From Corbicula japonica (Eukaryota > Mollusca > Bivalvia > Venerida > Cyrenidae): DNA of 64,000 bases. This document shows positions 2,505 to 52,900 of this stretch, in pieces (the stretch's first letter is position 1; every line of letters begins with the position of its first letter). The position numbers and the translations under genes were made by a program. The notes below the pieces were generated by a model. That model made no database searches and had not been told where the DNA came from. It was given only the letters and a program-made list of their open reading frames with translations. The stretch covers positions 1,426,001 to 1,490,000 of the forward strand of contig JAZAYU010000114.1 in NCBI GenBank assembly GCA_038501625.1, in the 5' to 3' direction.

Positions 2505-5500
2505 ATGTCTGTAAACATGACGGAATGTGCCAAAAGCGATTTCGCAGAAGTTCGATGTGGATACGGAAATTGCCGACCAAAGGCACTGCAGAAAGTGAAC
2601 AACTCAAAGACACTGCTTTTCGTAATGAGCTTTTATGTTTTTGTTCAAGGTACGGCTATTTATTTGTTTATTTACATTTATGTTCATGCATATCTATGTT
2701 TAAAATAGCATCGACTCTTAAAATCTCCCTAAACGGCTAACCGTTACTTGTTTTAATTATGGACCAATGTTTGAAACCTGGCTTTCTACTAAAGAAAAAC
2801 CATTCATTATGACCACCCCGAAATTAAGACCATTCCACTAATAAGACCAATATTTGACAGAACCATTTAAACAAGTGAGAACTAAAGACAAGGTCCCAAG
2901 GTTATAAAACTGAGAATGGAAACCAGTCTCAAATCTCAAGCATTTTATCAATCTCCATACAGAGTTGTCGTTCCTTGCAGTCTCTTAAAGCGAGTTAAGG
3001 AGCGACAACTCTGGATAGAGATTGGCATCTGATTGGCTGAAATGGCGACTGGTCACCATTTCAGCCAATCAGATGCTTGAGATTTGAGACTGGTTTCAAA
3101 TATCAGTTTTATAACTTTCAGCCATAGCTGACTTTATTTTGATTATTTGTAGTGTTCGATGGCTTTCTTATTCCCTTTTCATCTGTTTATAGGATTTATT
3201 GTAAATGGGGTGTTCAACGTTATTGTGTCGACACTAGAAAGGCGTTTCCAGCTCCGAAGCACTCAAATAGGTAAAATAATAGTATGCTTCAAATAACAGT
3301 TTCGTTTCCACACCAAAGTTGTTGTTACAGCAAATTCACATGATGGTGGCTATACCACGTGACCTTTTGGATGTCAAGCACACTCATGTTTTCTCAAACA
3401 TTCAAATACAAATTTACACTATCAAATTTTGATAAAACGACAGCCGGTTGATGTTGGAAGTTAAATGTCGGTGAAAATGCTTTTTAGCAGGAGTACGTCG
3501 CTCTTTATCTGATCGAAATCGGTCCAGTAATTACTGAGAAATAAGCAAAAACTTACATGAAGCGAGTGATTTTATATGTGCACGACATCCAAAACGTCTA
3601 GTGGTGCTATCTGTTAATCTCTGGATAAAAGAAATTGAAGTCTTATTTTCCCTTTAACATGTATCGTTTCAATAAAAAATCATAGCTTTATGTTAAGCAT
3701 TACACAGTGTTACCAGTCGCTAAAATATTGTCGTCCTTAAATACTTCTTGACCCATGGATGACAATATTCTTCAGAGGTTGACAGTCCAATTCAATATAC
3801 AGCCATCTGATATTTATCTGTTTCTATTTAAAAGGGCTTGCGGCTTCAGCCTACGATTTCTCCGCTGCCTTCTTCGGGATAATCGTCAGGTACAGTAACG
3901 GTTTTTGTAGGTACAGTAACGGTTTTGTAGGGAGAGTAACGCTTTTTTTTGATAACGTTTTGTTGTTGGTACAGTAACAATTTTTGTAAGTACAGTAACG
4001 TCGCTTTTCATAAGTACAGTAACGTTTTTGTAGGTACATGTAGGTACAGTAACGCTTTTCGTGAGTACAGTAACGTTTTTGTAGGTACAGTAACGTTTTG
4101 TAGGTACAGTAACGCTTTTCTTAAGTACAGTAACGTTTTTGTAGGTACTGTAACGTTTGTGTAGGTACAGTAACGTTTTTTGTAGGTACTGTAACGTTTG
4201 TTTAGGTACAGTAACGCTTTTTGTAGCCAGATTTTGTACAAAATAGCGACTAGATTAGTACCGCAATATATACAGGTATTCCACCACCTAGAAATTGGAA
4301 ATCGTCCCAGAATTTCAGAAAGTACTTTTTATAAACAATTGCAGAGGTCATAGACTAGCCAAGCATTTTCCCAAGGTAGGTCGGGCGCCAGATTTCACTG
4401 TGATAAAGATGTGCAGCCGGAGCAGTACTCGAACCCAGGACTCCTCGTTTACAGGGCGACTGAGCTATCCTGGCCGCACTAAATATCTTCTCCCTTAATA
4501 GTGTCTAGATTTGTACTGCGACATAATGCCTTAGAAGTTAATGATAAACAAATACATGTAGTTCATTTTTAAAGTTTGGAGTATCCACATAAATGTCTTG
4601 TCCCCTGAATATTTCGTTTCAAAATGTTTTATTTATGCAGTTTCCTCGGTTCGGGGCGCTACAAGGCAAGATGGCTGACGATATCCGCCATTTTTATGAT
4701 ATTGGGTTCCGTTGTCATGGCAATACCTCATTTTACGACCGACCTGTATGAATGGGGCGAACATGTAAAATCATCGTGTGATACATCAGGTAAAAGCATA
4801 GATCATCAGTCTTCCCGCCGTGTCGGACGTTAACGTTACACGTGTATTAGTATCAAATAAAAAAGGATGGTCAATAACTCCAAACTACTATATATCGTTG
4901 AGATAATACTTTAATGAAATGCTGACGTGAAGATATTTGTATCATTTTTCTAGAGCTTTCAAATAGCAATTCCAAAGTTCTGTATGTGCCTGTGTTTCGT
5001 TAACGATGCATTCTTGATAGGTAAAAAAAGCATAAATACATTAAATATCTTCACCTTTGTTGTGCAGGCAATGAGTATTATTGTTGGCTTTTGAAAAAAA
5101 ACACTGCAGCTTTGGTTATATGACACTCAGGCTGGCAGAATATCCTAACAAACCCTGTCAAACGTGTGACATTTTTTTCATTTTTAGGAAACAACTCTAC
5201 CTCAAAGACAAGATGCTTGTCTTCCGGTCTTCAAAACTACGTGGCAGTGTTTGCCCTTAGTAATATACTGTTTGGTATAGGGGGAGCCACTTTGTACACC
5301 GTCGGCACCGCCTATATCGATGACAGTGTGACGTCACTTGTTTCGCCGTTGTATATGGGTATGTGTTGCAGATAGATTGGCAAAATTGATTGTTTATAGT
5401 CACTGGCCAAAACATTTAATAAGTGTTATATGTATCCCACCATAAATTTAATTCTATGTGTAAATTCGTGCGCTTGGGCATGCATGAGGGCGGTCGTGCG

Positions 5501-8500
5501 GGCGGTAGGATGTTTGTTTGCGTTTGTGTTTCACAACGTTATGATTTTTACGTGCACACCGGTTGCATGACACAGTTGCATTTGGCAAACTCGGTTGTGA
5601 ACTCGATAATGACATATGTTGATTCAAAGGTATTTTTTAACAAGGAAAGTCTCTCCCGTGCAAAATTATTTCGAAGTATTTACATGTCGTTGAGATTAAG
5701 CACTTGCACAATGCAAACGGTGCACACGTTATTTTCATGACGTTGTGGAAGTAGAAACTACCGCGATTGTCTTTAATTGCAGAGTTTCACTGTATTTTCA
5801 ATTTTTCAGGTATATATTTTGGCTTCTCTGCTTTGGGACCTGGAGTTGGCTATTTGACCGGAGGAGCTTTTTTGAGTTTCTATGTCGACTTTAATAAATT
5901 AGGCTCAAAACAGTTAAGTTATTTTGATTAACGTTATCATGAAAGATAATTAAAATGAAAATGATATATGGTGCACATGGCGGGTTAAAGTGGTCTTATG
6001 TGACATTATTTTAATGTGTATGCGTTTGGATGTAAATAGACATTTAAGGATTTAAACTTTTTAGGAAAAGATATTTCTCTTGACTGTTCTAACTTTTTTT
6101 GAATGTACGTAAATAAGGTACATTATAAACCTTCTTGTGAACATTTTATTAAACTGCATTTTGCTGTAAGACATATTTTGATAATTTTTGCTGTGAAAGT
6201 TTTTAAATAATTTCGGGATAGAAAAAAAATACAATGTATATCCTTATTTCACATCTTATTCGTTTTTTTGCATCCACCAGTCTAGTCTGCTTTTCGTGAT
6301 ACGTGAGTCGTTTCAGAGCAAATTTAAAGACCACAGACAACCGTTGGGTCGGTGCCTGGTGGATTGGACCCTTGCTGTCAGCCATTTTGTTTATGTTTCC
6401 GGCTGTTGCATTGTCGTGTTTTGGCGCTGAGCTACCAAGTAAGTGTTGTTTTTTGTTTGGAAAATCTGATAGTTATGTTCAAACATGCTTGATCAGGGTT
6501 GTTAAATTATTCACTTTAGTCTTAATCAGTAATAATATAAAGATTTTCATTCCGACTGCGTTATTTAAGTTACTCTTAACTCCAAATACATGAGTGGACG
6601 ACCTGTGTAGATCTAGATCAGCCGGCACATCCATACTTTCTGATCAAAATCTATACTTGTTGATTATGTGTAAGAAAGAACCGGTTGAATCTCAAAGCAA
6701 ACAGTGTAGATCCAGATCAACCTTCATATTCCTTCCGTCTGATCAGGACACTTGCCAGTTCTTGGTCAGAAATAACACAAAGGATATCAAGGCGAAATGT
6801 TGATCCTGATCAGACGGCTCAGTTACATTACTTTTCTTATCCTGAGTTCCATTTGTCATTATAAGATACAAAAATCGAGATGTATTCTTTGTAAACGCCT
6901 GAAAACCAGACCACTTGTACAAAATGACCGCTAGAAGTACATCGGTCAGTTTTCTATCATTTTAGCTTCTAAATTAATCAGAGAGTCCCGAGAATCACAG
7001 CTTCACAAAGGAACGCTCAAAAAAGCTCAAAACGTCGATCCAGCACGACCTGCTTTGAAAACTGTGCATCAAGTCTATATAACCCTTCTTCGGAACCCAC
7101 CATTTTTGTTTACGACATTGGCCGGAATTATGGAGGCCATGTACATTTCCGGTCTGAGTATATTTAGCGCCAAATACGTCCAGAATGCATTTCGACTGTC
7201 ATCCGGAAGAGCTGGCGTTCTTACGGGTAGGTTGGTGTTAAGACTGCAGTGATCCAAAAGGCAGTAACCCCTTCCGTCGGGGTCTTGCGATGTTCATACA
7301 TTCGGAGAAAAAAGATTAATTTATTATCAAATACTATTTTGACACAACCACTTTACACACCACCTATCTTAACAGTGGTTGCAGTATTAAAATTGGGTTT
7401 ACCATCATTTTTAATGGCAGACAGGATTGTTTATATTGAAAAGAATGCGTTAATTTTACTTTATTTGAGAATTTCTCGTTTAATGTAAAAATTAAAAAAA
7501 CTGACAAGAATTGTCATGTTGTTATGAAAATAAAAAATAATGATTATTCTTCTCAAAAATACTTTGAATTCTTTTTTTTCTTATTGTATTTTCTTCAGTA
7601 GAATAATTGAGAATTTGAAACATTATTTTCAGCCCCAAACTGAACTGAACACTGCAAATATTTATAACGTGAAAAAATTGTGTTATTTTCTTTGTATTTT
7701 TTTCAGGAATTTTTCGGCAGTATTTGGTACACCTATTTTGAATACCAAACTAATTTAAAATGCAACCACTTGGCTTTCAACAATCATTTTGTTGCTTTTT
7801 AATTTTTAACAAACGCCTCCTGCGCCACTTATCTTAGAATTAAAACAGAATGTTCAAGTTTACATATGAACAACAGAAATTTTTCAGGTTCTGCTATCAT
7901 TTTGGGTCTGGCCGGTGGGATAGCATTTGGAGGAGTTGCCTGTCGCTGTTTTCGTTTGAAGGTCAAGGGCATGTTAAAGTTTTCATTCGGTGTGTGCCTT
8001 ATTAGTACCCTGTGTATTCCCAAAGTATGGATGTCATGCGGCCAGACGACTCTAGCGGGAGTTCATCTACCATATAAAGGGAGGTAAGTGTTATAATGTC
8101 TTGTGGCTAGAAGATTCTAGCGGGAGTTCGTCTACCATATAAAGGGAGGTAAGTGTTATAATGTCTTGTGGCTAGAAGATTCTAGCGTGAGTTCTTCTAC
8201 CATATAAAGGGAGGTAAGTGTTATAATGCCTTGTGGCTAGAAGACTCTAGCGGGAGTTCGTCTACCATATAAAGGGAAGTAAGTGTTATAATGTCTTGTG
8301 GCTAGAAGATTCTAGCGGGGTTCTTCTACCATATAAAGGGAGGTAAGTTTTATAATGCCTTGTGGCTAGAAGATTCTAGAGGGTGGTTCGTCTACCATAT
8401 AAAGGGAGGTAAGTGTTATAATGTCTTGTGGCTAGAAGATTCTAGCGGGGTTCTTCTACCATATAAAGGGAGGTAAGTGTTATAACGCCTTGTGGCTAGA

Positions 8501-11500
8501 AGATTCTAGCGGGAGTTCGTCTACCATATAAAGGGAAGTAAGTGTTATAATGTCTTGAGGCTAGAAGGTTTTAGCGGGGTTCTTCTACCATATAAAGGGA
8601 GGTAAGTGTTATAACGCCTTGTGGCTAGAAGATTCTAGCGGGAGTTCGTCTACCATATAAAGGGAAGTAAGTGTTATAATGTCTTGAGGCTAGAAGGTTT
8701 TAGCGGCGTTCTTCTACCATATAAAGGGAGGTAAGTGTTATAATGCCTTGTGGCTAGAAGATTCTAGCGGGAGTTCGTCTACCATATAAAGGGAAGTAAG
8801 TGTTATAATGTCTTGTGGCTAGAAGATTCTAGCGGGGTTCTTCTACCATATAAAGCGGGTTAAGTGTTGTAATGCCTTGTGGCTAGAAAATTCTAGCGGG
8901 AGTTCGTTAACCATATAAAGGGAGGTAAGTGTTATAATGCCTTGTGGCTAGAAGACTCTAGCGGGGGTTCGTCTGCCATATAAAGTGGGGTAAGTGCTAT
9001 AATGTCTTGTGGCCAGAAGACTCTAGCTGGGGCTCATCTTCCATATAAAGGGAGGTAGGTGTTATTATGTCTTGCGGCCAGACGAATCTAGCGGGTGGTT
9101 TATCTACCAAAAAAAAAGGTAACATCTACCATATAAAGGGAGGTAAGTGTTAAATGTATTTAGCCAGACAACTCTAGCGGGAGGGGGGGGGGGGGTTCAT
9201 CTACAATATAAAGGGAGCTAAGTGTTGTAATGCCCTGTGGCCAGACGACTCTAGGGGAGGGGGTGGGGGGGGGGGTTATATACCTTATAGAGGGAGGTAA
9301 GTGTTATAATGCCTTGAGGGAGTTCATCTACCATATAAAGGGAGGTAAGTATTGTAACTCTTGAGATGCGAAGTCTTTTTTAATTGATACGAAAGTCTTC
9401 GATTTTTCACAAGAAACATATTCCGGATGAAAGATTTCCAGAAAAGAGTTTTGTTTGTGGTAGTCTTGGTATAGTTACATGAATTTCAAACTTCCAGGTC
9501 GAAATCTACATAAACAATAAAATATTGCTGTCCAAAACGCCTGTCCGAGCAACCCCACTGAACCCCTTCTGGATCTTTCCCAGCTATTTTAAACCAACGC
9601 AATTCTACTTAAGACATTTCTTCCGTCCGAGTTTTCTCCACTTAATAATGAAAGAGACGTATATTGAATTAAGACGAACATTTACATTATTTAAACCCTT
9701 CAAAATTAACATAGAAAAAGTATTAAAAAAAATGAATAGAGTCAAATCGGTCTTCAGACCCCTCTGGGAAAAACCAAAAGTGGTCTTTGAAGGCATGTGG
9801 TCTTTGCTCTTTACAAACATCAGTATAGAGAACACTTAAGTCCAGTCACGAAGGTATATTCTTTGCCGGATGCCACTTGCAACCTTAACATTTTCTTTGT
9901 TTTAGCACGGAGATTTCACTGTTAGACGAATGTAATTCAAAATGCGGATGTACAACGGAGAGATTCGAACTTTCATGTGACAGTACCGGTGTTCAGTACT
10001 TTTCCCCATGTTTTGCCGGATGCACAAATATTGTGAATACCTCTTCAGTAAGCAGATTTGTAAGTAGTTAATCCTTTCTATGACTAGGATTACCTTCTCC
10101 TACAGTACGTCAAGAACCAGACTTGGTTATAATCGACAGCCTTTCCGTGCAGTTTCGACAACCGGTAAACAAAAACGGTGCTTACCAGTTAACATGTGTG
10201 CCTAAGATCATAAAACTAAATCTGGAGACCAGTCTCAAACCTCAAGCATCTGATTGGATGAATTGGTGGTGGTCTCCAATCTAAGTTTTATGATCTTGGG
10301 TCCTGTTCTACACAGGTAACTCCGTTTTTGTCAAGGGATTTGAAATCCGAAGGATTCCTTGCTTAGCTTTGCGACAGACAGGTGCAAATAAATTTCCTTC
10401 TGCTACATGCATCCCTTTTTAAGACACTACTAGGCCCAAGATCATAAGAATAAGATTGAAGACCAGTCTCAAATCTCAAGCATCTGATTGGCTGAAATTG
10501 CGACCAGACGCTTTTTCAGCCAATCAGATACTTGAGATTTGAGACTGGTCTCCTGATTTACTATGAGCTTGGGCCTTAATGACCGGTTCTATTACCAGTA
10601 ACTATGACGTCTTTAGTGTTTATTTTTTTTTTGACGCAACTACACTCTCCGGCTTTTAGGTACAATTTTTCTTATATAAATTTTATTGCATTCAATGAGG
10701 TTAAGACAATATCTGGCTTGGTTGAAGTTTGTCAGCTTTAGTGTTAAGACACGTGCATTCAATAATGTAATGATTATACTAATGAAATGATTGTCGTTTT
10801 GCAGATTGAGAAAAAAGACACTTTGTATTTCAGACAAAATACTCGAACTGTTCATGTGTACACACGAGCGCCAACATGACAACAGCCACAGTGACACGTG
10901 GAAGCTGTGAGTCGAGCTGTCGCCTTGTGTACGGGTTTCTCGTGCTGATGTTTGTTTACGCTTTTACAACAATTGCGGCGGACGTGCCCGCAGAACAGGC
11001 TGTTCTGAGGTATGCCACGGCACCTTAAATTACTCTGCTACCATAAACGGAGAACTTATAAATAAACAAGCAAATTCAATGAGTGAGCATTCTTGGCGAC
11101 GAATTGAATGGATAGGCGAGAGCAATTCGGCTAATTATGTTTGTTTTATGTTTGCCAGTGAATTGCAGTTTCCTCAGTAAAAAATTGGTATTTTCACTGT
11201 TTTGAAACTATAGAATACCATTTTTATTTTCACTGTTCTTGCGGAACTACTTTTAAATTTATTACCGCCCTCTCCATTTTTTTCAGATTCGTTTGAAAAA
11301 AAGGCGTAAAATAAAAAGAAAATGTTAGTTTCATTGATAGCGATTGTATTTGACTGGTGATAAAAAATATCAGTTTCTGGTGTTCATTCGTGAAATAAAG
11401 TTGATATTTCACTTTGATAAAAAATCAAAGCGCTGAAAGCGTTGAAAGACTGGCGCGCTGGCTGAATCGAACTTGCCCTGCACAGATATCATTACTTTAA

Positions 11501-14500
11501 ACATATGAAACTATGTGCGATTTTTTCGTTAAACTTTGTGGCAGTTAATATCATCAACATTAGCAAATAATTCAGTATATTCAGGGATTTCAATAGATGC
11601 AGGTACTTGTATTTTGATGCAAGGAAATAAGGTTTTCCACTTTTTCACCTTAATCTTAGGTTGGGGGTCTTTGATGCAGGAGTGTATGATTAGTGGTTAA
11701 ATTTTGCTAGAATAACGATGATCAGGCTCCGCCACAACTGAGTAGTGTCAACAATGAAATGCACAAGGCTCACATACCTTAAGAGACTGAAACAGTTACA
11801 ATCTTAATTTTAACGTCGATCACAACAATGCATTAACAAAAATATTCGCCAAATTACTTACGATCTCCCCGGGATTTTTGGAAGGGTTGTCGCTGAACGT
11901 TTCGTGGATTTTAGCTCGCAAAACTTTATTTTTTAACTATCATTTTATACAGTTTCATATTTGTACCAAAGTTTACTGCAACAACTGTATATAGTACATA
12001 GATGGTTTTTTTTTTATCTCTTTAGAGCCAAGAAAGGTACAAAGTTAAAAAAACATAAATAATGTGAAACAATGTGTAAACAGTATGTCAACATGTGTTT
12101 TAATTACATAAACTGATCTGATCTCATCAAGTTGCAATGTCAACTATATGCTCTGTATAGTTAGTTTTTCGCCTTCATTGTCCAAGATATCTCACACATA
12201 TCAAACTCAGTGTTTCATTACAACTGACAGGATTAGGATTAAACTTTCAGACGCCTCTTTTTTTCTTGTGCCCAAGTGCTGACTGCCTTATTATAATCAA
12301 ACTTCAGTACATCAGGACCTTCCATGGATATCATTAACAATGAATTTAATGTTGAATTGTTAAGCCTGCTTCTAAGCTTTGTCTTCACTCTTGATAAGGT
12401 GGAAAACCCCACTCACAATCTGAAATTAAATTAATTTACAATACCAGTAAACATATAGACAGCTTCATATATATATTTATATAAATAATATCATAATAGG
12501 TATTTAGTTAACACAAACAGGTATAATAAATTATATAATGCACCCTAGAACCGGATTTAAACCCCCAGTAGCAAATTATTTTGCCACTGACTGTTCCAAG
12601 GCACTAACCCATACGGTTCTCTTTTTTGTTAAACAATCAACAAACAAATCATTTATTTTCCTCTCTTCTTTTTGCTGCAGGGGGAGGCTGTGTTTTTTGA
12701 GTGTGGCGATACCTGATATGCATATTTCCCTTTTTATTATAGTAGCTGAGTTATTTTATTTATTTAATGCAAGTCACAAGGCTAAGTTAATATATATAAA
12801 AAACCATTGCCAACTTCTTGCAACCAGAAGTAGACTTTCTTCCACTTTGGATCGACACCTGACTGGATCGAACTGGCTGTTCGAGGTAGCCGGCGTTGAT
12901 TCAGTGTCTCGGCATGTTGGGGTACCGCGTCCGGCGTCGGAGTAATTTTCCGACGTGAAGGGGTACTTTGCGTCGTCATAGTCGCTCTTGAAGGGCTATC
13001 CGGAATGATCTCGATCTCATTTCTTGAATTTTGAAGTTCAGAATGCCCGATGGAGTTGGCATCAGCCTCACAAGGCCGGTTTCTCTTGAAATAAGATAGA
13101 ATCGACGAGTCGTCGTTCTTTCGCACAACCATAATTGAATATGTGTCCGACGAAAATGAACTGATCGTTACGATGATAGCGCAGTAAAATGCCACAGAAT
13201 GCATTTCTTTTGCAATATAAGTTCTGACTGCAACTTGCCAATAGATTTGTTTAAACAAATCAATTATCGCGCAATTATTTTCATACATGTATACAGTACA
13301 ATTTTCGAAGTGTTTGTCTTCTAATCACAGAACAAAGAATAACCAAATTATTACTCCGATCGCATCTCTTTAAAATCATTGAACATTATGTCAAACACAC
13401 CCGCTATTAATTGAGAATATCAACTGTCGGCAGAGCCAACATACGATCAAACGACACCGTCAGACTTGCAGGCGGAGTTATCCAGCTGATAGTAAAGAAA
13501 TCGATTGTGATTGGTCAAATCGCCCATTGCTTAACCTTGAATGAGGTGTGTATTGAAAAGCGACCTGTGTTTACAATGCAAGAAACAGAAAATTATGTCA
13601 TGTCGATTTTGAATAAACGGATGTCGGCGAATTTAACACTTGTTGGAAATAGTTCAAAGCTTGTTAACGTTTACGGTTGTCGGGCACAACTACTCCAACT
13701 TAACCAAAATGGCAACCCACGCTATCTCCCGCTTGTCACGTGACTGATTTGTTTTTAGTCGTTTATTTAATATCCTTTCATAGTTGTCCGAACAACAACA
13801 TTAAATAGTTTTCTTGTTTTCTGGACGAATGATGGGTCATAATATATTATTACTATGTAACTATTACTTGATTATCTTTACTATAGTACAATTAGGCCGG
13901 CGCAAGGGATATGTTGCCCGGCTTTAAATAGAGGTGTTTAGCGAATGCTGAGAACCATGTGGCCTGGCTTTATATATAGATCGTTGAGTAATGAACGGGA
14001 ACCATGTTGTATGTACGTTAAGATCAAGGTCAGGCTATTTATAATTGAGTATATAAATATAGATACTGAATTGAATTATCTCCCCTTAACTATACATATA
14101 AATATAAACATGTATATATATAGATAATATAAATAGATCGATGAGTCGGTGTTTTCTTTTAATTATGCGAATTGAAAGTTTATTGTTGTAAGCAGTTATA
14201 GAAAGAGTGTACATGTAGTAAGAGACATTGTTCAGATAGTTATTCTTGGATGATATTGAAGTTTGTGTTCTGTTTACGAATATTGGCAATCCTATGACTT
14301 GATTTTTGACGCGTGAATGTGACATTTATTATGATGGTTCTTTGTTTACAAACGTTTCTGATGTTGAAATTGACGGTTCTAGTGGGTTTCTGTTTTACAA
14401 GAAGGCGATTTCGTGTCTATAAAGTAAATAATGATTGTATTTACCATTTTTGTAGGTTTTTTTCTGTTGTTCAGAATAATTGTGACTCATCCCCATCCCC

Positions 14501-17430: not shown

Positions 17431-18675
17431 ACACGGTTCAGCTTCCATGTTTAGATCATTGTTTTAGACTTGCGATGTGATTTCTTTTGAGGTGCAGATA
17501 AATCATTGACACAAAGATCTGAAATAACGTCATGATCGACGACATTTTAATTCGTCGACGAAAAATACAGAGTTGCTGTTCCTGAATATATGAGTAGATG
17601 TAAGATGTCGTCGGATTAACATATTTGAATTATAACCTACTTATTTCTTTACTAGTTTTAACCTTTGATGTTTCGATGTATAGATGCAATTTCTCATGTT
17701 ACAATAGAAAAAACACAGTTTAGTTTCAAAGTAGTTTCTTTGTCTATCATATTCGCAAAACATTTATTTACACAGGAACACACATCTGGGATTATCTTCC
17801 AGAATATGTAAAATGTTCTATCACAATTCAACGATTCAAAGCGGAATACATAAGCTGGAAGGAAGCCTTCGCCTTATCGTAAAATGTAGTTCCATTGCAA
17901 CTAGTTTTGTAGCTTTGTAGTTTTGTAACTTGTAACAGTAGCGTTGTTTGTGCCGTGTGGCGGCTGTAAAAAGTCTCCCCGTACATTCAATCAGTGCTGT
18001 TATCAGTTACGTCCTTTGAAGGTCGTTGAGCACGATACTTATGTACTATGTTTATAGTACTTCTAAAATTCCTTTTGTTTTAATATTTCGGCCAGTTTAT
18101 AGATAGGTGGTTTCAATATCCCGGCCAATGTCGATTTGGATATTGTCCAATCACCCCCAAGGATATACTTCCTGCTTTTTAAATTTTGCCTTTGGCGTAG
18201 TCTGTGATATGCAGGATTTATATTCTAAGATCCCCTGTCAAAATTCTATTCTGTTTAGTTCCGCCCATTGTTTTCTCGTTTAGGGCAAACCCATTCTTTT
18301 ATCTGGGGACCATACGCCGCTGAATATGGAATGGTATTAATCTGAAAATACCTCATTGAAGGTTCCATGTTCACCGCCATATGCATACCATCGTTTGGGA
18401 TGGATCGAAATTGTACTATTTAATGGTGTAATTACTGAGTTGCGCTCAACCCGGGGCTAGGCGGCGTGGGCAGTAATAAACATTCCCATTACTGCCCATG
18501 AACAGGCTCAATCAAACCGAGCCTGCAGTATTTTCATATTTGTCGTGTTCGGTGGCTTTCAAAGTTCCCTTTTCATCTATTTGTGTAATTTTTATTTGTT
18601 ACCATATTATATACTGTTTATCTTTGTCATACTTTGACATTGTCAAATAAGCCACCCTCGTATTAAAATAAAGTC

Positions 18676-18703
18676 GTTATTATTATTATTATTATTATTA
18701 TTA
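18676..18703. repeat. (TTA)n microsatellite
   Basis: About nine perfect ATT/TTA units in a row. Confidence 0.9.
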
Positions 18704-19318: not shown

Positions 19319-19374
19319 TTGTGTTTGAATGTAAATAAAGTTTTAGGGATTTTTAGGTCTACGATGCTTACATT

Positions 19375-21215: not shown

Positions 21216-41146
<19,931 letters not shown>

Positions 41147-41198
41147 TCCGGTTTTGCACACCATCAACTGACTTGAGCAATTACCATCATGTAAACAC

Positions 41199-41216
41199 CC
41201 CGCTTTAAATATAGAC
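41199..41216 (-). promoter_or_regulatory. Candidate TATA box of ZP-A
   Basis: On the minus strand CTATATTTAAAGCGG lies about 60 bases before the ZP-A ATG (41146). This would give a ~30-nt leader. AT-rich DNA makes chance matches common, so this is only suggestive. Confidence 0.35.
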
Positions 41217-41698
41217 ATGCACGAGATTCACGCTCTGCACGAAGTCGTAGTGAATTCTGGGTATTAAAGCAAGTTGTGTAAGAAAATTTAGGATTGGCCA
41301 GTTGTGCATAAAAATCCCGTGCGCGTTCAGCGACAGTTTATTTGAACAAAGCGGAATACAACTGATAGCTTCATCCAGGTATTATACACTTAATTTTAAC
41401 TGATTTGATATTTTGTATAAAACTGAAAACAATTCATATTGTCACACCATATATCAAGATATCTGTCTATGATTACTGCCACCTCCTCTTTAGAGTGTTT
41501 ACATGTATGATAAAAAAACACATAGCCGTATAAATACTAGCGTCATTTCCCCTAAATTGACATGCTTCAACCCATTTATTAATAGCTTCAACCCATTTAG
41601 TAATAGTTTCAACTCCAGTGTCCACAGTGGCGTTGGCAGCGACAAGCTCAACTCTTTGAACCGAGTGAATCATTGTTGAAGTATTCCTACAATTATCA

Positions 41699-42055
41699 GG
41701 TCTAGGAAACGGCTGTTTTTATGGACTGTCTGTAAATTTACAGAATGTCAGTTTATTTATAGATAAATGTGTGTGTCTGTAAATTTATGGACAAGGGTTG
41801 ATACAAAAGTTAACACATTTTAGATATTCACAAATCTAAAGCATTTTTGTTAATTCTGATAGAAAAGAGCGTAGCATAGGACATAAATATAAATGGTTGA
41901 AGTTTGTTCACACTGCTATTTCCTCTCTAACAAAGTCATCGATGACCTAACAACATTTCACATAATCATTTGAACATAATAATGATCTCTTTAAAAAAGT
42001 TATGTTCATTTACAATAAAAATGCTAATTTATTTGTAGATTTTCATTCATTTTTA
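41699..42055. mobile_element. Element F1, uninterrupted copy
   Basis: Starts TCTAGGAAACGGCTGTTTTT and ends GTAGATTTTCATTCATTTTT. It matches the body of the interrupted copy in inverted orientation and contains the intact target ATCTATAAATAAACTGAC in reverse complement. It sits in the region between the two divergent ZP genes. Confidence 0.8.
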
Positions 42056-42995
42056 TGCCCCCACAAAGTGGGAGGCATATAGAGTTGCACTCGTCCGTCC
42101 GTCCGTACGTCCATACGTCCCCAAATCTTGTGGCATCAACTCCTCCTAAACTATAAGGCGGATTTCTTTCAAACTCGCACAGATGATCAAGCAGGATGTG
42201 TAGATGATCGTAAAGAAAGGATTTTTTCCTGCGACCATTTTTACCAGAGTTATGGCCCTTTGTTAATTTCAGTTATAAAATCTTGTGGCGTCAACTCCTC
42301 CTAAACTACAATGCAGATTTCTTGCAAACTTGCACAGATGATGAAGCAGGATGTGTAGATGATCGTGAAGAAAGGATTTCTTCCTGCGACCATTTTTACC
42401 AGAGTTATGGCCCTTTGTTAATTTCAGCAATTAAATCTTGTGGCATCAACTCCTCCTAAACTACAGGGCAGATTCCTTGCAAACATGCACAGATGATGAA
42501 GCAGGATGTGTAGATGATCGTGAAGAAAGGATTTTTTCCTGCGACTATTTTTACCAGAGTTATGGCCCTTTGTTTTTTTCAGTAATAATATCTTGTGGCA
42601 TCAACTTCTCATTTACTTTTGGACAGATTTCTTTCTAACTTGCACACATGATCAAGATGGCTGGGTAGATGATCATAAAAAAAAAGATTTTTTCTGCTGC
42701 CATTTTTACCACAGTTATGGCCCTTTGTTTATTTCACTTACAAAATTTTGTGGCATCAACTTCACATTTTCTATTTGGCTGATTTCTTTCAAACTTGCAC
42801 AGATGATTAGACATGATGTGAAGATTGTTGTAAAGGACATTGTCTTGCAACAATTTTCACCACAGTTATGGCCTTTTGTTTATGTTAGTTATTAAATTTT
42901 GTGGCACTTACTCCTCATTTACTAATCATGATCACCACATGTTGTTAATACCTGGTACAAAATTTTGTAACAAATGTTATTGCAGCAGTGGGGGC
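42054..42995 (+). repeat. Dispersed repeat family D3, locally tandem copy (about five internal units)
   Basis: Starts ATGCCCCCACAAAGTGGGAG..GCATATAGAGTTGCACTCG. Then a ~145-150 bp internal block (ATCTTGTGGCATCAACTCCT ... TACCAGAGTTATGGCCCTTT) repeats about five times with growing divergence. It ends GCAGTGGGGGCATCAGTGTC..CTGTGGACACAGTCTAG. The frames across it are repeat translations. Confidence 0.88.
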
Positions 42996-43967
42996 ATCAG
43001 TGTCCTGTGGACACAGTCTAGTTATCATCGGCGTCAGTATTGCTGTCCCGTTTTGATTAAAGTTTGCGTGAAACCTATTATTATCTATTACAACTGAAGC
43101 TTTCAAACTTGGCACACTTGTTCACCATACATTCAAGTGGCTCAGGGGCTGGGCATGTGGGGTGGTCGGGGGAGGGATCAGAGGTGTATGGGTGTGGTAG
43201 TCACATCATTTTTTATATTTAATTTATTCCTAAACTCAAACCAACAAAATATTTTGTTGTTGTGGTTGAGACTCTAGACCTATTCACCACCCTCCCCTTG
43301 TCAAAAACTTATTAAATGGTGGGATTGGGTAGGACATTGGGCTCACCGAGCTTTTAAATTAAAAAAAATGTTTGGGTTGATGGGGAAAGGAAAGGGGTCA
43401 GAGGTTCTAGGTGTTGTAACCCCGTCAAAAACATTTTTTTCTTTCTTAACTCAAACCAAAAGACTTTCCATTATTTGAAGTAGTGATTAAGGTATTTATC
43501 CATTTATGGAAGTCTGACTTTATGATCTTTAGTTAAACCTGGCATGACTTATCAAACATCTGCATTAAACGGCCACCTGCCCTAAACAGCGTTCTTCAAA
43601 ATGCCCTAAATTTCATTTTCGTTTTTATTTTTACTTGTGCAAACAGTCACCTGTGTTAGGCAGCCACATTATGCCAGTCCCTTGGGTGGTTGCTTAAAAC
43701 AGGTTTGACTACTATATACATGTATACAGCCAGAATGCTAATTATTATCAAATTATAATTTATATTTTCCTAGCACGGAGGTCTGACAAAAATCACATAA
43801 ATACTTTAAAGCTTAATATGACTATGTAAAAATCAAATCTGCCTTTTGTTTTTTCCAGGCAACTCTCTGGCGTCGTGTTACCATAAATGTATGCTAAGAA
43901 TCGCATTTGTAACCTTCTGTTACCAGAGACCGTATTCAAGTGTTTGTATTTTATCTGTATTTCAGGC

Positions 43968-46900
43968 ATGGCGAGGTTCAGTGAGGTGTGCGTTCTGGTG
44001 TGCGTACTTTTTACACCGTGCTGCCTGGCAGAGGTGATAAACGTTACAATAGGTACCTTTATTACTCTAGCTCCCCATAAAGTTTAGCTGTTAGGAAAGG
44101 GCATTGTATGTGTGTTTGTCGGTTTCTTGATATTTACAGTCCGGCCATGTGCTTAAGACCACATGTGAACAAAAATCACATTGTATTTGTCCCTTTAAAC
44201 AACAAATTTACGTGTGCACAAAGACCACCTGCCTTAAAATACCTCACAAGAATTGGATTTTCCCTTGTGTGGTTTTTGAAAAAAAAAAAAAAAAAGCAAC
44301 ATATGCATATCGGGAATCGCCACACTCAAAAAACACAGCCTCCCCACGCAGCGAAAAAGAAGAGAGGCTTTGAAGGCAGGTTTGACTGTACTTGTTTACA
44401 GAAACCAGCAATTACCTGATCTAAATACACCTGGCCAGTAATAGCAGGCGTGCTGGATAGTTCCGCTCATATCTTCTCCCACCTATTGCAAACATTTTTT
44501 TCAATTGATTGGAAACCTATATCGTAAATTATTTCAGAAATATACATACAAAAATAATGAGTTTGAGACCTGTACAGAACGACTTATTTGTGATAAAGTA
44601 AACACCTCGTAATGACCGACCCCAAAATCAAGTCTACCCCGCCACTACTTCAAACTTTTTTTTAAAGATTTATAATATTTTTCCACCCCAAAATTAAGAC
44701 CACTCAGTATAAACGTGCATTTTAGTTCAGTCCTAGAGGTGGTCATAAGAGCGGTGTTGAACCCTTTACTCCTTTTACACATTTCAACGCATGTGCGACC
44801 AGTGTAGATCCAGACCAGCCGCCACAGCAGCGCCGTTCGATTTAAATCTGCACTTTTTGGTCAGAAACAACATGATGAATATAAAATCGAACAGTGTAGA
44901 TCCTGATCAGACGGCAAAAAATATGCCTACTGATCTGGATCTACACTGTTCGCTCACGCAATACAGTCCTATATATAGAGAAAGGGTAAAATGTATTTGA
45001 ACATGGCTTTATCATCAAACGTGGCTTTCTACAGTAGCTCATTTAATTACACATTTATATATTTACTCATAATTTAGTGGAAAAATGACACATGCTAAAT
45101 ATGATACTGTGATATCATTTAATTTCGCGGTTATCAAATTTTGCGCAAAAAAATAAATGACATTTTTGCGTGGACGATTTGTGCGGTTGTATTATTTTAA
45201 TAAAATTATATACTAGTAATAAATGCTTGGATTTTGCGTTATGATTTCGCGCACTTCTTGTACCGCAAAATACTTAAAAATAAATCCCTGCGAAATAAAA
45301 TACACGTAAACCACAATAGTTTTTCTTTATTGTAGGCTGCTATCCAAACAACACGATTACTGTGACGAATCCGTCCCCAAGCACATTGTTCTACGGCGTC
45401 GGGATAGGGCCCAACAAAATCAACTGCGACGCAACATTTTCTGCGGACAACAGTCTAATCACACTCGAGGGATGTCCTAAGGTAACGCAACATTTTCTGT
45501 AGACAACACTCGGATCACACTCGAGGGATGTCCTAAGGTAACGCAACATTTTCTGTAGACAACACGCTAATCACACTCGAGAAATGTCCTAAGGTAACGC
45601 AACATTTTCTGTAGACAACACTCGGATCACACTCGAGGGATGTTCTAAGGTAACGCAACATTTTCTGTAGACAACACTCTAATCACACTCGAGAAATGTC
45701 CTAAGGTAACGCAACATTTTCTGTAGACAACACTCGGATCACAATCGAGAGATGTCCTAAGGTAACGCAACCTTTTCTGCGGACAACACTCTAATCACAC
45801 TCGAGAAATGTCCTAAGGTAACGCAACATTTTCTGTAGACAACACTCAAATCACACTCGAGGGATGTCCTAAGGTAACGCAACATTTTTTGTAGACAACA
45901 CTCTAATCACACTCGAGAGATGTCCTAAGGTAACGCAACATTTTCTGCGGACAACACTCGGATCACACTCGAGAGATGTCCTAAGGTATCTTTTGGACGG
46001 TCCAGATTCTAATTAGTATGTCTGTGTTTTTTTTCGACCGGCATTTCGTTGTTAGACAGTTTCTTTTTTTTCTGTGTTGTTCGGTTCCATCGGCGCTTTA
46101 TTTCACCCTTTCCCGTGAATTACAGAATTTTCTCGATGAAATAAGTGCTTACTCATTGTTATTCTTTTCACGTTGGTATCCATGCGCACATAATATCCCG
46201 AGTGAGATCTTTTTGAAAAAAAAGGTTAATGCAGTTTTTCTGTAGAAATCATGGTAATTATTCATTAAAATACATAAAATTAGAATACACAGAAAAGATG
46301 TCTTTTACCAGCGTGACTAATTTTATGATGAAACTATTGTATTATAAGGCATTTTGTTAAGGCTGTTAAATGTCAATATAATCTCCGGCAATATTCTCAT
46401 ATAAAAATTTCGCGCTGGCATGAATTCGCGCATTTAAATTAATCGTATAAGAATTGATATTAGATGGTTTGATTTGACTGGGATTCGTGTCATTATTTTG
46501 TTTCGTAACGATTATCATGCTAACTAGTGACTATCATGTTTCGCAGTGAGAAATGTGTTTCGTAAAAATTCCTGTTTCATTTCATGTAGATTATCATGTT
46601 CCGTAGAGATCATTGTTTCGTAGATTAACACAATTCAAAGTGATTATCATGTTCCATAGAGATTATCATGTTCCATAGAGATTATCATGTTCCGTAGTGA
46701 TTATCATGTTCCATAGAGATATCGTGTTCCGTAGTGATTATCGTGTTCCGTAGTGATTATCATGTGCCGTAGAGATTATCATGTTCCGAATAGATATCGT
46801 GTTCCGTAGTGATTATCATGTTCCGTAGAGATTATCATGTTCCGTAGTGAATATCATGTTCCGTAGAGATTATCGTGTTCCGTAGTGCTTATCATGTTCC

Positions 46901-49900
46901 GTAGTGATTATCATGTTCCGTAGAGATTATCATGTTCCGTAGTGATTATCATGTTCCGTAGTGTTTATCATGTTCCGTAGTGATTATCATGTTCCGTAGA
47001 GATTATCATGTTCCGTAGTGATTATCATGTTCCGTAGTGATTATCATGTTCAGTAGAGATTATCATGTTCCGTAGAGATTATCGTGTTCCGTAGAGATTA
47101 TCATGTTCCGTAGAGATTATCATGTTCCATAGAGATTATCATGTTCCGTAGTGATTATCATGTTCCGTAGAGATTATCATGTTCCGTAGTGATTATCATG
47201 TTCCGAAGAGATTATCCTGTTCCGTAGTGATTATCATGTTCCGTAGAGATTATCATGTTCCGAAGTGATTATCATGTTCCGAAGAGATTATCCTGTTCCG
47301 TAGTGATTATCATGTTCCGTAGAGATTATCGTGTTCCGTAGAGATTATCATGTTCGTAGAGATAATCATGTTCCGTAGATTAACGCAGTTCGAAGTGATT
47401 ATCATGTTTCATAGTGATTATCATGTTCCGTAGAGATCATCATGTTCCATAGAGATTATCATGTTCCGTAGAGATTATCATGTTCCGTTGTGATTATCAT
47501 GTTCCGTAGAGATTATCATGTTCGGTAGTGAATATCATGTTCCGTAGATTTACACAATTGGAAGTGGTTATCACGTTTCGTAGTGATAATCATGTTCCGA
47601 AGAGATTATCATGTTCCGTAGTGATTATCATGTTCCATAGTGATTATCATATTCCGTAGAGATTATCATGTTCCATAGAGATGATCATGTTCCGTAGTGA
47701 TTATCATGTTCCGTAGAGATTATCATGTTCCCTAGTGATTATCATGTTCCGTAGAGATTATCATATTCCATAGAGATAATCATGTTCCGTGGTGATTATC
47801 ATGTTCCGTAGAGATTATCATGTTCCGTAGTGATTATCATGTTCCGTAGAGATTATCATGTTCCGTAGATTAACACAATTCGAAGTGATTATCATGTTTC
47901 GTAGTGATTATCATGTTTCTTTGTGATTTCATTGTAAAAATCATGATTTCTAGCGCTAATCATGTATTGTAGACATTTATCAAGTTTCATAAAGAAAATC
48001 ATCTTTTATAGTGATTACCATGTTTCGTAGAGATTATCGTGTTTCGAAATGATTATCATGTTTCGTAGAGATTATCATGTTCCGTAGAGATTATCATGTT
48101 TCGTAGATATTGTCATGTTCCGTAGAGAGTATCATGTTTCGTAGAGATTATCATGTTCCGTAAAGATTATCATGTTCCGTAGAGATTATCATGTTCCGTA
48201 GAGATTATCATGTTTCGTAGAGATTATCATGTTCCGTAGAGATTATCATGTTCCGTAGAGATTATCATGTTTCTTAGTGATCATCATGTTTCGTAGTGAT
48301 TATCATGTTTCGAAATGATTATCATGTTTCGCAGTGATTATCATGTTTTCTAGTGATAACCGTTTTTCGTAGTGATTCTCGTGTTTTGAAGTTATCATGT
48401 TTTTGTAGTGATGATCATATATCGTAGTGATTATCATGTTTCGCATTGATTATCATGTTTCTTAGTGTTTATCGTGTTTCATAGTGATTAGGTTTCGTAG
48501 TGATTATCATGTTTTGTAGTCATTATCATGTTTTGTAGTGATTTTCATGTTTGGTTGTATTTTTATGTTACGTTTTGATTATCATGTTTCTTAGTGATTA
48601 TTGTGTTTCGTAGTTATGATCATGTTTAGTAGAGATTATCGTGTTTCGTAGCGATTATCATGTTTCGTAGTGATTATCGTGTTTCGTAGTGATTATCGTG
48701 CTACGTAGAGTACAATGGGTATTAGATCTTTCATCCGTCTTTAATCTGACACTAGTTCAGACACTTTTTAATCATTTCCCATAGAATACCGTTCCAGGGT
48801 CAGGTTTGGCCGTTGCAATTTATAACAATGCAAATTTATAAAGAGCAATCGAAGACATTCTGTTTATTCTGTGACAGCAGTTAAACAATATCTTCATCAA
48901 TTTTTCTTTGCTAGCAGCCAGGGAATCCAGTCACTCCTAAATAACAGGTAAACCGGAATGAAACTGACTTTTGGTCAAGTCTCTCCAAATTCAAAACAAA
49001 TTTTGTCAATTTCACTTATTTCTAAATTTTAAGAAAAGATATGACCGAAATATCTACCGATAGAAAAAAATGTGTATATAAATTGTATTCCATAAACAAA
49101 TTTGCCAATCGCAGACCTTAAATCAGCATTGAATTAGCCAATTGCATATATGCTATCAACAATGAATAAGCCAATCGCATACCTGCTATTAATGAGCCAG
49201 TCAAAGTCCTGCTATTAACATTTAGTTAGCCAATCAGAACTGTTTTTATTCCTTCAGGATGTAGACATTCTTCTTCAACTGACCGAAGACATTCAAGATC
49301 AATTCATAGTGGGCGGGACAGGCAAGGTCCAGTTCCACATTAAATGCACCGAGATTGTGAATGGAATGACAGTCAATGTCACGCATTCTCTTCAAACAAT
49401 GTAAGTAAAGGGAACTAAGACTGTGATGACAGTCTATGTCACGCATTTTTTTCAAACAATGTAAGTAAAGGGAGCTGACAAGTATAATGTCAATGTCACG
49501 CATTGTCTGCAAACCATGTAAGTAAAGGGATCTCATTGGTATAATGCCCATGTCATAAATTCTCTTCAAACAATGTAAGTAAAGGGAGCTAACTAGTATA
49601 ATGTCAATGTCACGCATTGTCTGCAAACAGTGAAAGTAAAGGGAGCTAACTAGTATAATGTCAATGTCACGCATTGTCTGCAAACAGTGTAAGTAAAGGG
49701 AGCTAACTAGTATAATGTCAATGTCACGCATTGTCTGCAAACAATGTAAGTAAAGGGAGCTAACAAGTATAATGTCAATGTCACGCATTGTCTGCAAACA
49801 GTGTAAGTAAATGGAGCTTAGTAGTATGATGAGGTCAATGTCACGCATTGTCTGCAAAAAATGTATGTAAAGGAACTAACTAGTATGACAGTCAATGTCA

Positions 49901-52900
49901 CGCATTCTCTTCAAACAATGTATGTAAAGGTAGCTAACTATTATAAAGACAGTCAGTGACGCGCATTCTCTTCAATGTAAGTAAAGGGAGCTAACTAGTA
50001 TAATGACAGTCAATGTCTGAATTCTCTTCAAACAATGAAAGTAAAGGGATGTACTAGTATGTCAATGTCACGCATTGTCTGCAAACAATGTAAGTAAATG
50101 CAGCTAACTAGTATAATGTCAATATCACACACTCTCTTCAAACAATGTAAGTAAAGAGGGAGCTTAATTGTATAATGAGGTAAATGTCGCACATTCTCTT
50201 TAACCATGAAAGTAAAGGGAGCTAACTTGTATAATGACAGACAGTGTCATGCATTCTCTTCAAACAATGTAAGTAAAAGAAGCTAAGTAGTATAAGGAGG
50301 TCCAACAATGTTAGTAAAGGGAGCTTAATTTTGTAATGACACCCAATGTCACATATTTTCTTCAACAATGTGATTAAAGGAGCTTACTAGTTTACTATTA
50401 GCCAATATCACACATTCTCTTCAAACAATTAAAGTCAAGGGAGCTAAAGGGTGATAAGTAGAAGACATTGTCGCCATTACTTATTTTCTTCTTACACTTT
50501 TTTGTACAGGAAGATAGTAAAGAAGAATGATAATTTTCACCAGACAATATCACACTTAAGGTAACTTACTAGTGGACTGAAAGTACCCTTGCACAATCCA
50601 TTCAAACTGTGTAACAGAAGGGAGATAACTCAAAGGGGGGGGGGGGTGACAGTCACATTGCATTCGTTTCAAGAAATGTTTACCAGTGTATGTGGATGCC
50701 TTGTGGAATGACAAATACCTTGGCGCATTCTCTTCAACAGTGTAAGTATATAGAGCTTACTAGTGAAACAACAGCAACCTTTACGCATTTCTTCAAACAA
50801 TGCAAGTAATGGGAGAGAACCATTGAACTCGGAACATTCTAGTTGAATGACATTTATCATCTCGGATTCTCTCCAAACAATATATCGGTGGCAATTAATA
50901 GTTGAACGAGAGTCAGCTAAAGGGAGGTAAGTAGTGCTTACACATTCTCAGTCAGTCTTATGAAAAAGATGTCCATTCCAATTTCTTCAGTATACATAGT
51001 ATAATTGAACATGTATTATCGACGCATCTCTATTACCTTCGTTAATTAGGTATGTAGTTACGCGGTTCTATATTTGATAGCTTTGATCTAGATATCCCGA
51101 ACTCTGTCATTTCTTGGTAAATATTAAGTTGATTAATAAGTTATTTTAACAAACCCCCAGAAATAATTAACCCATATTGAACTGCATAAGAATCATTGAT
51201 AATTTTAACAAGTGTGTCAATAATACAGCGATCCAGGCTAAGTACTAACAAAGGCTTAGTTATTACTTTTACAAAATAAACAAATAATCTTAAATATTTT
51301 AGACGAATGTTTTCCGATGATGCCACCCTATTTAATTCCTTTTTCAATGAATGGATCAAGAAGTAAATTTCTGATGTCTTTCAGCCTGGTAGTTGACGAG
51401 ACATTGGAACAAGACGTATGGTTTTATCCAAACTTTTACGTCAGAAGAAATGTTTTGACGGAACCAGTAACGATTGCTGAGATAACGGATCCTCTTTACT
51501 TGACCTATGATCTCAACAGTGAGTAAATCATCTTAATATGGTGTTCGTAAGGGCCATCGTTGTTTCATTAGTATGAAATTATTTGTAATTTTATGGGTAT
51601 CATAAATACTGCAAATATTCAAATGAAATTAATACCTGCTCGAGTTGTTACATGACCGTCTGTGATATAGTTGCCAACAGTTATGTCTCTTTACCAATTA
51701 CATATATAGTGTATAATTAGGTCGGCTATTTTAAGAATATGGGAGCTACCCTACTCAACCCGGTGTCGGTGTCCGCGTCTGTTAAACAAAATATGAACTT
51801 GATCACATAACTTTAGAACTACATTTGATATAAACTTGAAACTTAGAATGTTTACTTGTATTCACCACCAAAATCTACATCATTTAAAACAGGAACCTTG
51901 GCTCTGCTACAATTATGCCCCTTTTTTCTTAAATTTTGCGTTAAACAAAATATGCTTCACGTTCAAACTACTTGAGATGTCAACTTGAAACTTAATTTTC
52001 ATGATAATTTGGTCAAAAAGTTGAAAATTATCCCCTCTTCTGGAAATCTTGCATTTAAAAGTACAAGAACTAGTCTACTGATTTAAGCGTTTCCAAAAAT
52101 TTGTAAAAACACCCTTATTCTGTTTGCAGATAATTATTCAATGACGTTTGACAGTTGTACTGCATATTCCGGCCAGACGCCTTCACCCACGAGCATATAC
52201 CTTCAGCTGATCTCCTCGGAGTACGTAGTTTCTGTGTTGTCCTTTCAGAGAGATATGGATCGCTTTGTCCGTCCGTCGGTCCGTCACGAAAACATGACAT
52301 AGGTCAAAACTTCGCCATTTCTTAATATTACTTCATCAAACCTTCAAATATTTTTCTTATGACAAAACGGTCGTGATGATTTCAAATTCTTTAGGTCAAA
52401 GTCACGTTTGACGGAGTCATGCCCGTTTATGCCCCCACAAAGTGGAAGGCATATAGAGTTGCACTCGTCCATACGTACGTAAATTTTTTTTGCATCAACT
52501 CCTCCTAAACTATCAGGCGGTTTTCTTTCAAACATATACAGATGATCAAAGCAGGGTGTGTAGATGATCGTAAAGAAAGGATTTTTCCTGCGACCATTTT
52601 TACCAGAGTTAGTGCCCTTTGTTGTTACAAATGTTGTTGTAGCAGTGGGGACATCAGAGTCCGAGGACACATTCTAGTTTTAATTGGACTTTTATTTTGA
52701 CAACGTACCAGAGGGCGACACAAGTGTTCAACTGAACACCCATCTACTTTACGGTAATGCGGTATAGACCCACTACATATAAAAACGTTTGCACGGCATA
52801 TTTTATTTTAATATAATAACTACGATTAATATTGCTATGCTACGGGTTCAGAAAGGAATGGCGTTCCATACTTCACAAAATAACAATGACGTAATAATTT

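Follow-up and report, generated by a model that had tools for sequence, protein, structure and literature searches.

Tandem arrays that include splice donors in two Corbicula japonica genes are probably minisatellites tolerated by splicing

Introduction

Tandem repeats that take in a 5' splice site have been described before, and the closest case lies in a human gene. The VNTR in intron 18 of ABCA7 is intronic, adjoins an exon and includes that exon's authentic donor (PMC5954066). According to the available portion of that paper, the donor of the second unit is used in about 2 ± 1% of cases, irrespective of array size; this figure is a lower bound, because the one-unit isoform undergoes decay. 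Further, skipping of exon 19 rises with longer arrays, and donor-including arrays such as that of ABCA7 are, on this evidence, not always neutral. A catalogue of variable internal tandem repeats situated at exon-intron boundaries also exists for human genes that lie in segmental duplications (PMC2812944). Exon sequence duplicated in tandem together with splice signals is on record from potato (PMC4974935), fission yeast (PMC3629103) and Drosophila (PMC2891723). In human UBC, tandem dual-specific splice sites, which are donor and acceptor at once, occur in coding repeats (PMC10809524). In a mollusc, a 27-bp minisatellite varies the length of intron 3 of a TSSK1-like gene of abalone (PMC6905558). 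All of these reports are cited for the portions of their texts that were available; on the same footing, the systems of PMC3045353, PMC7244538, PMC6692358 and PMC2576457 were considered and do not match the arrays treated here.

We analysed a 64,000-nt stretch of the Corbicula japonica assembly GCA_038501625.1 (contig JAZAYU010000114.1, 1,426,001-1,490,000, forward strand), hereafter the window; all positions are window coordinates. An initial annotation had described four arrays, each anchored at an exon/donor junction, and had known of no named element class with such a structure. The ABCA7 VNTR and the catalogue of human boundary repeats, as far as the available parts of those papers go, supply precedents. 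The layout is already known from a human gene, and the Corbicula arrays are further cases of it.

Results

Three genes were rebuilt in the window (Table 1), yielding a set of 23 donors and 24 acceptors. The supported number of introns is 23, in place of the roughly 31 initially counted. The SLCO model is 92% identical to its relative P0001 and equal to it in length. The ZP-like model shares 40% identity over 92% with the relative P0116, itself annotated PF00100; the Pfam CUT_C match of the ZP-like protein, at 24.2 bits, falls under the cut-off of 30. Both models, built on first donors, align to these relatives without insertion. The P450 gene served as a control, and none of its 4 donors bears an array. 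A Pfam search of six anonymous ORFs elsewhere in the window gave no matches.

Table 1. Genes, arrays and shared stretches in the window (a slash marks the splice junction)
Feature	Position	Strand	Description
SLCO (OATP) gene	2505..17430	+	13 coding exons, 652 aa; Pfam PF03137, E 3e-135
ZP/cuticlin-like gene	43968..55860	+	8 coding exons, 329 aa
Cytochrome P450 gene (control)	58992..63676	-	5 exons seen, phases consistent; one exon matches Pfam PF00067 (E 2e-15)
Array 1	3888..4226	+	20-bp unit, ~17 copies according to TRF; the first begins at AG/GT, donor of SLCO exon 3 (3835-3889)
Array 2	8031..9360	+	65-bp unit, 20 copies; composed of the final 53 bp of SLCO exon 9 (7888-8083) and 12 bp of intron; donor GAG/GTAAGT
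Array 3	45429..45988	+	56-bp unit, 10 copies; composed of the final 53 bp of ZP-like exon 2 (45336-45481) and GTA; donor AAG/GTAACG
Array 4	49366..50950	+	57-bp unit; composed of the final 29 bp of ZP-like exon 3 (49258-49400) and 28 intronic bp; donor AAT/GTAAGT
26-bp stretch TAAAGGGAGGTAAGTGTTATAATGTC	8075..8100	+	Array 2, first instance; spans the donor
Counterpart 26-bp stretch TAAAGGGAGCTAACTAGTATAATGTC	49580..49605	+	Array 4, 22/26 identical; lies a short way 3' of a donor copy

TRF finds a tandem array at each of the four places given in the initial annotation. All four arrays include the authentic donor of the upstream exon, and a phase-consistent 5' splice site lies within the first unit of each (3889/3890, 8083/8084, 45481/45482 and 49400/49401). 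The unit had been described as the 3' end of an exon plus its own donor. This is correct for arrays 2 to 4, but array 1 and its exon have only 'AG' in common; its units read TTTTTGTAG/GTACAG, with a T-rich run preceding AG/GT. As read from the sequence, a T-rich tract directly before the donor is absent from arrays 2 to 4. Array 4 is present where it had been placed but is longer: the reach of TRF ends at 50295, and decayed copies continue to about 50930-50950, beyond the earlier limit of 50470. The observation of four donor-anchored arrays, taken whole, is partly confirmed. Two further arrays were found by TRF in intron 2 of the ZP-like gene. Sites with at least seven of nine donor-position matches number 20, 10 and 20 in arrays 2, 3 and 4, the first donor counted.

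The history of array 2 can be read from six diagnostic bases of the exon. These are absent from the 13 exon-adjacent copies, save for one base in one copy, and three or four of them occur in four of the last six copies; the closest relative of the exon copy (numbered 0) is copy 16. The exon is the source of array 2, and the recent growth of the array was internal. In arrays 2 and 4 the distal copies are decayed, and a positional gradient is seen. Higher-order periods of 41 bp and 129 bp are reported by TRF in arrays 1 and 2, and in arrays 2 and 3 the nearest copy frequently lies two units away.

In the junction scan, scores downstream of the four array donors are 49, 95, 98 and 71, against maxima of at most 27 at the other 19 donors and at most 32 at the 24 acceptors. 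The probe for the donor at 45481 extends into the second copy, which gives this donor an upstream score of 34 as well. Strong local junction copies are found downstream of 4/23 donors and at 0/24 acceptors, a difference that on its own is marginal (Fisher one-sided P = 0.05). With the arrays subtracted, the host introns measure 414, 545, 1060 and 434 bp, within the range of other introns, and they retain unrepeated acceptors that lie outside all arrays. Thus, pre-existing introns were lengthened. The same scan speaks against intron gain by tandem duplication of AGGT: the intron is not bounded by two copies, and the acceptor is not inside the repeat.

Four such arrays in one window had been judged far more than chance would produce, a judgement that holds under one null model and not by repeat coverage. 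The 23 introns hold nine arrays (those elsewhere left out) once overlapping TRF rows are merged, with 9123-9313 put in array 2 and 48476-48506 in a 19-bp array. If founding were uniform over intron and junction sequence, 0.34 of the nine arrays would be expected to span a donor, and four do (P = 2e-4 for at least four). By coverage, however, donors lie in local repeats (4/23, 17%) no more often than intron interiors do (211/1006, 21%; P = 0.74). Acceptors are never covered (0/24; P = 0.0035 if positions are independent), and exon interiors rarely (6/244). The comparison that had been proposed with acceptor and mid-intron rates, made within the window, places donors above acceptors and not above intron interiors. 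Donors thus resemble other intronic positions, and the depletion is confined to acceptors and exons, a pattern for which a simple tolerance filter is sufficient. The shared starting point of the arrays is real, but a special recurrent process at donors is not established, given that their coverage is that of other intronic positions. The earlier interpretation, taken whole, is partly supported.

A 26-bp stretch of array 2 has a counterpart in array 4 (Table 1), so the description of the array sequences as unrelated fails for this pair. The similarity score is reached by 2/48000 shuffles of that pair, which is one of six array pairs (21 unit pairs compared). The best agreement between the shared stretch and the first copy of array 4 is 14 of 26 positions; therefore, the stretch is not evident at the founding site of that array. 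An introner-type mobile intron would be recognised by related copies scattered over many loci; elsewhere in the window the stretch was not found (best 18/26), and a degenerate form has no exact match in viral contigs, among which bivalve DNA would not be expected. Allowing up to two mismatches, the window contains 29 occurrences of the motif AAAGGGAGRTAACTC, where 0.2 would be expected; arrays 2 and 4 hold 18 of them. The AAAGGGAGATAA motif is common in mollusc DNA, and a literature search for it gave no mollusc paper by title. No hairpin common to all four arrays was found (z of -2.4, +1.0, +0.8 and -2.8 for arrays 2, 3, 4 and 1). Arrays 1 and 3 are weakly similar, at a level reached by 189/48000 shuffles (forward strand only); the donor consensus, aligned in register, is part of this likeness, and we do not rely on it.

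The consequences of splicing at a later donor copy would differ between arrays. In arrays 2 to 4, none of 264 downstream GT sites (116 + 25 + 123) gives a full-length protein, the strong ones included. Of 48 downstream donors with at least seven of nine matches, a count without the lower-scoring unit donors of array 1, none keeps the protein. Array 1 is, as judged from the reading frame, an exception: 4 of its 56 downstream GT sites would keep the protein, with 7 to 28 extra residues, and the remaining sites would not. Its second-unit donor, at 3910, would keep the frame and add seven residues. The copies of array 1 thus need not be silent. Rotations of the unit that are as conserved as the donor window, or more so, number 21/65, 7/56, 9/57 and 14/20 in arrays 2, 3, 4 and 1; the donor window ranks fairly high in arrays 3 and 4 and is extreme in none of the four. 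In array 3, mean identity is 0.990 in the donor columns and 0.940 in the other columns of the unit.

Discussion

We consider it probable that these arrays are donor-spanning minisatellites, the product of ordinary repeat growth, which splicing tolerates because the first donor wins. Each would have started as a short tandem duplication, a chemistry that we infer, of a segment straddling the junction (abutting it, in array 1) within an already existing intron. The upstream copy would have retained an intact exon end and donor, so that normal mRNA could still be made, with the exon-proximal, first-transcribed donor presumably prevailing in Corbicula and the arrays being close to neutral. Extra copies would fall in the intron, where unequal exchange or slippage could multiply and homogenise them, as in any minisatellite. 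Acceptor-side arrays would be missing because duplications across acceptors, or within exons, would damage the message and be removed, leaving arrays on the donor side only.

Tolerance alone does not predict the excess of donor-spanning arrays under uniform founding, nor does it explain the 26-bp stretch common to arrays 2 and 4. A mutational process tied to the donors may be at work, though it is not established. One form of it would make donor junctions mutational hotspots in this lineage, at which an R-loop, U1-bound nascent RNA or a replication-stalling motif (such as AAAGGGAG-TAA) would repeatedly trigger tandem duplication. The occurrence of four events in two of three genes, improbable under uniform founding, would suit such hotspots, as would the shared stretch and the abundance of AAAGGGAGRTAACTC. 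We nevertheless think them unlikely, for donors are no more repeat-covered than intron interiors, array 2 grew internally and not by repeated copying from the exon, the shared stretch is not evident where array 4 was founded, the four arrays have no hairpin in common, and the argument is post hoc and drawn from one window. It is somewhat more doubtful that minisatellites arise again and again at exon-donor junctions in this bivalve lineage, owing to a break linked to transcription or to a lineage-specific motif (the shared 26-bp stretch, around AAAGGGAG-TAA), with introns growing systematically from their 5' ends. That the extra copies are selected decoys, regulating their genes through U1 binding, poison splicing with decay, protection from early polyadenylation or, in array 1, added residues, we regard as improbable. 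The many donor-like sites of arrays 2 to 4, the in-frame second donor of array 1 and the donor columns of array 3 lend themselves to this idea, but the donor windows are not extreme among unit rotations in any array, the distal copies of arrays 2 and 4 decay, and P0001 has no insertion at the array 1 junction. The regulatory donor cluster offered in the initial annotation fares no better, as donor columns are not clearly better conserved and no later GT site of arrays 2 to 4 keeps the protein.

Two other origins can be weighed against the structure of the arrays. Tandem arrays are prone to assembly error, and copy numbers may be wrong, but an artefact, or a collapsed or expanded repeat, is very improbable: the copies differ, arrays 1 and 2 have higher-order periods, nearest copies in arrays 2 and 3 are often two units apart, and arrays 2 and 4 show a positional gradient. 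Slightly less probable even than this is the birth of the introns themselves, either from a tandemly duplicated AG-GT exon segment (the Rogers model) or as dual-specific splice-site arrays. The units do contain AG/GT or similar, and those of array 1 have their T-rich run, yet the acceptors lie outside all arrays, none of the 24 has strong local copies, and the introns are ordinary without their arrays.

Comparison with the described systems, within the available portions of the papers cited above, bears on donor-spanning minisatellites as a class. As would be expected of arrays of the ABCA7 type, the acceptor and the remaining intron are ordinary and outside the array in all four of our cases. 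The ABCA7 unit, of 25 bp, begins at GT, as does that of array 1, whereas arrays 2 to 4 add 29-53 bp of exon. In ABCA7 the donor of the next unit causes a frameshift; arrays 2 to 4 would likewise lose the protein and array 1 would not. Protein loss from a later donor is an incidental feature of ABCA7, set by unit length and sequence, and not a condition of the architecture. Population polymorphism and effects on RNA are documented for ABCA7, whereas the Corbicula arrays are known from one assembly. The repeats of PMC2812944 also cross exon-intron boundaries, but there they are described as exon changes or novel introns; here the introns appear to be pre-existing and the acceptors are untouched. 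Unlike the potato, fission yeast and Drosophila cases, our arrays give no sign of a new intron, and the intron is not flanked by a copy on either side. UBC is likewise a tandem array of splice-site-like motifs, but arrays 2 to 4 have no T-rich tract directly before their donors. The abalone minisatellite also resides in a mollusc intron; the available text of PMC6905558 gives no splice-donor position.

Donor-spanning minisatellites would offer a simple route to longer introns. They would also be natural tests of how the spliceosome chooses the first among up to about 20 near-identical donors. With four in a single window, bivalve genomes may be well suited to genome-wide measurement of donor competition and of tandem-duplication bias around splice sites.

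Results

Tandem Repeats Finder placed tandem arrays at all four locations named in the initial annotation. Two lie at donors (5' splice sites) of the SLCO gene, those of exon 3 (array 1) and exon 9 (array 2), and two at donors of the ZP-like gene, those of exon 2 (array 3) and exon 3 (array 4). Exons were placed by hand and checked by reading frame and splice signals; two SLCO boundaries were set with the help of P0001, a relative that, like the SLCO protein, has 652 aa and is 92% identical to it. The source of P0001 is a 2411-bp contig, and it is thus presumably from a transcript. Pfam identifies the SLCO protein as an OATP, and its nearest named relatives are from bivalves (Mercenaria, 68% identical; Mactra, 64%; Mya, 59%). 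The earlier label "ZP-B" goes beyond the evidence for the other host, because the best Pfam match, CUT_C, scores under the cut-off; the one relative found, P0116, has a ZP domain and is 40% identical.

We scanned junctions with a probe of 25 bp on each side, searched in 2 kb both sides. Strong downstream copies were present at four of 23 donors, the remaining 19 scoring 27 or less, and no acceptor (0/24) scored above 32. The arrays had been described as an exon's 3' end plus its donor. In substance this is true of only three, since array 1 starts at AG/GT and is otherwise intronic. The unit of array 2 comprises the 3'-terminal 53 bp of exon 9 and 12 intron bases; that of array 3, the 3'-terminal 53 bp of exon 2 and GTA; and that of array 4, the 3'-terminal 29 bp of exon 3 and 28 intron bases. 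Array 4 runs on as decayed copies up to about 50930-50950. Without their arrays, the four introns measure 414, 545, 1060 and 434 bp, inside the range of the other introns.

Features of the window and their coordinates
Feature	Position	Details
Donor, array 1	3889	Downstream copy score 49
Donor, array 2	8083	Downstream copy score 95
Donor, array 3	45481	Downstream copy score 98
Donor, array 4	49400	Downstream copy score 71
Common 26-bp stretch, array 2	8075-8100	
Common 26-bp stretch, array 4	49580-49605	
AAAGGGAGRTAACTC outside well-preserved arrays	1147-1161, 14073-14087, 50617-50631, 50919-50933	
Sister motif AAAGGGCCATAACTC	e.g. 21379, 31703, 42247, 55570	8 occurrences, both strands
SLCO gene	2505-17430	13 coding exons; frames, splice signals
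ZP-like gene	43968-55860	8 exons
P450 gene	63676-58992	Minus strand; five phase-consistent exons; P450 match on one exon
Inverted repeat, SLCO intron 11	14905-15446	Large; arms 170 nt (98% complementary), 80 nt (95%)
Satellite-like arrays	27548-29953, 36319-37284, 39131-40493, 42123-42906	Units 145-321 bp; between two + strand genes
19-bp AGATTATCATGTTCCGTAG array	46588-48710	About 113 copies; occupies the bulk of ZP-like intron 2; lies downstream of array 3, at no splice site
Three adjoining minisatellites, P450 intron	61622-62067	Units 25, 32, 35 bp; about 120 bp downstream of the intron's donor, without contact
Sequence around CACAAAGTGGRAGGC	About 42060, 52430, 56740	Recurrent; followed by GTCCGT-like runs

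The recurrent sequence around CACAAAGTGGRAGGC is probably a dispersed element.

Whether four such arrays exceed chance depends on the view taken. With nine arrays within 23 introns and founding units placed uniformly, 0.34 donor-spanning arrays are expected (four or more, P = 2e-4; three or more, P = 0.0036), for a pattern spotted post hoc in one window. By coverage, local repeats occur at 4/23 donors vs 211/1006 intron-interior positions (P = 0.74), these positions being non-independent and many falling inside arrays 1-4 themselves; the values for acceptors and exon interiors are 0/24 and 6/244. Further, 20% of 300 random window positions score at least 50, and the contrast of donors with acceptors is by itself marginal (Fisher P = 0.05). 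The earlier claim of an excess thus stands under uniform founding and falls by repeat coverage; the refuting comparison proposed with it, run in close form on the window, found donors no richer in repeats than intron interiors. In our reading, donors are as permissive as introns, and acceptors and exons are not.

Discussion

The simple reading of these arrays is that they are donor-spanning minisatellites, tolerated by splicing since the first donor wins. Past that donor lie 116, 25 and 123 GT dinucleotides in arrays 2, 3 and 4. Because use of any of these 264 as a donor would truncate the protein early, the sequence implies that the first donor must serve in arrays 2-4. Their other donor copies carry no clear mark of selection: in none of the four arrays are the donor's nine columns extreme in conservation against other nine-column windows of the same unit, and in arrays 3 and 4 they rank in the upper part. 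In array 1, 4 of 56 GT sites would preserve the protein and lengthen it by 7 to 28 residues. The first of these, the second unit's donor at 3910, would add 7 in-frame residues (3890-3910), a possible minor isoform; P0001 has no such insertion.

The histories of the copies look like ordinary minisatellite evolution. Six positions separate the exon copy of array 2 (copy 0) from the array consensus. Apart from one base in one copy, the 13 copies adjoining the exon lack its state; three or four of the six exon-state bases recur in 4 of the final 6 copies, and copy 16 is closer to the exon copy than any other. The exon is thus the source of an array with two old edges and an interior that homogenised later. 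This argues against continual fresh copying from this donor. Among the three arrays compared (2, 3 and 4), copies farther from the exon have lower identity to the consensus in arrays 2 and 4 (Spearman -0.87 and -0.83), a trend not seen in array 3 (-0.03).

One result speaks against the simple reading. Although they lie in different genes about 40 kb apart, arrays 2 and 4 have in common an ungapped stretch of 26 bp with 22 identities, a score attained in 2 of 48000 shuffles of the pair. Elsewhere in the window the best ungapped match is 18/26, the level of shuffled sequence. Donor consensus is ruled out as the cause, because the stretch lies across the donor in array 2 and just downstream of it in array 4. 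Nor is the stretch evident at the founding place of array 4, whose first copy reaches 14 of 26 matches at most. When as many as two mismatches are allowed, a shorter motif, AAAGGGAGRTAACTC, has 29 occurrences vs 0.2 expected, 18 of these inside arrays 2 and 4.

Neighbouring phenomena include intron gain by tandem duplication (PMC4974935, PMC3629103, PMC2891723) and, in human duplicated genes, tandem repeats located at exon-intron boundaries (PMC2812944). The intron-gain family fails here in the very trait that defines it, because no acceptor (0/24) lies in a strong local repeat. Array 1 has the architecture of the human ABCA7 VNTR (PMC5954066), which directly adjoins exon 18, contains its splice donor (the donor GT being the array's first two bases) and varies in size between about 12 and 427 units. 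There the second unit's donor is used at about 2 +/- 1%, not dependent on array size, and the resulting isoform undergoes decay; exon 19 skipping increases with longer arrays. ABCA7 supports the view that the first donor wins, and also cautions against terming such arrays neutral. What may be new here is the density of arrays in a bivalve lineage, together with the stretch common to arrays 2 and 4.
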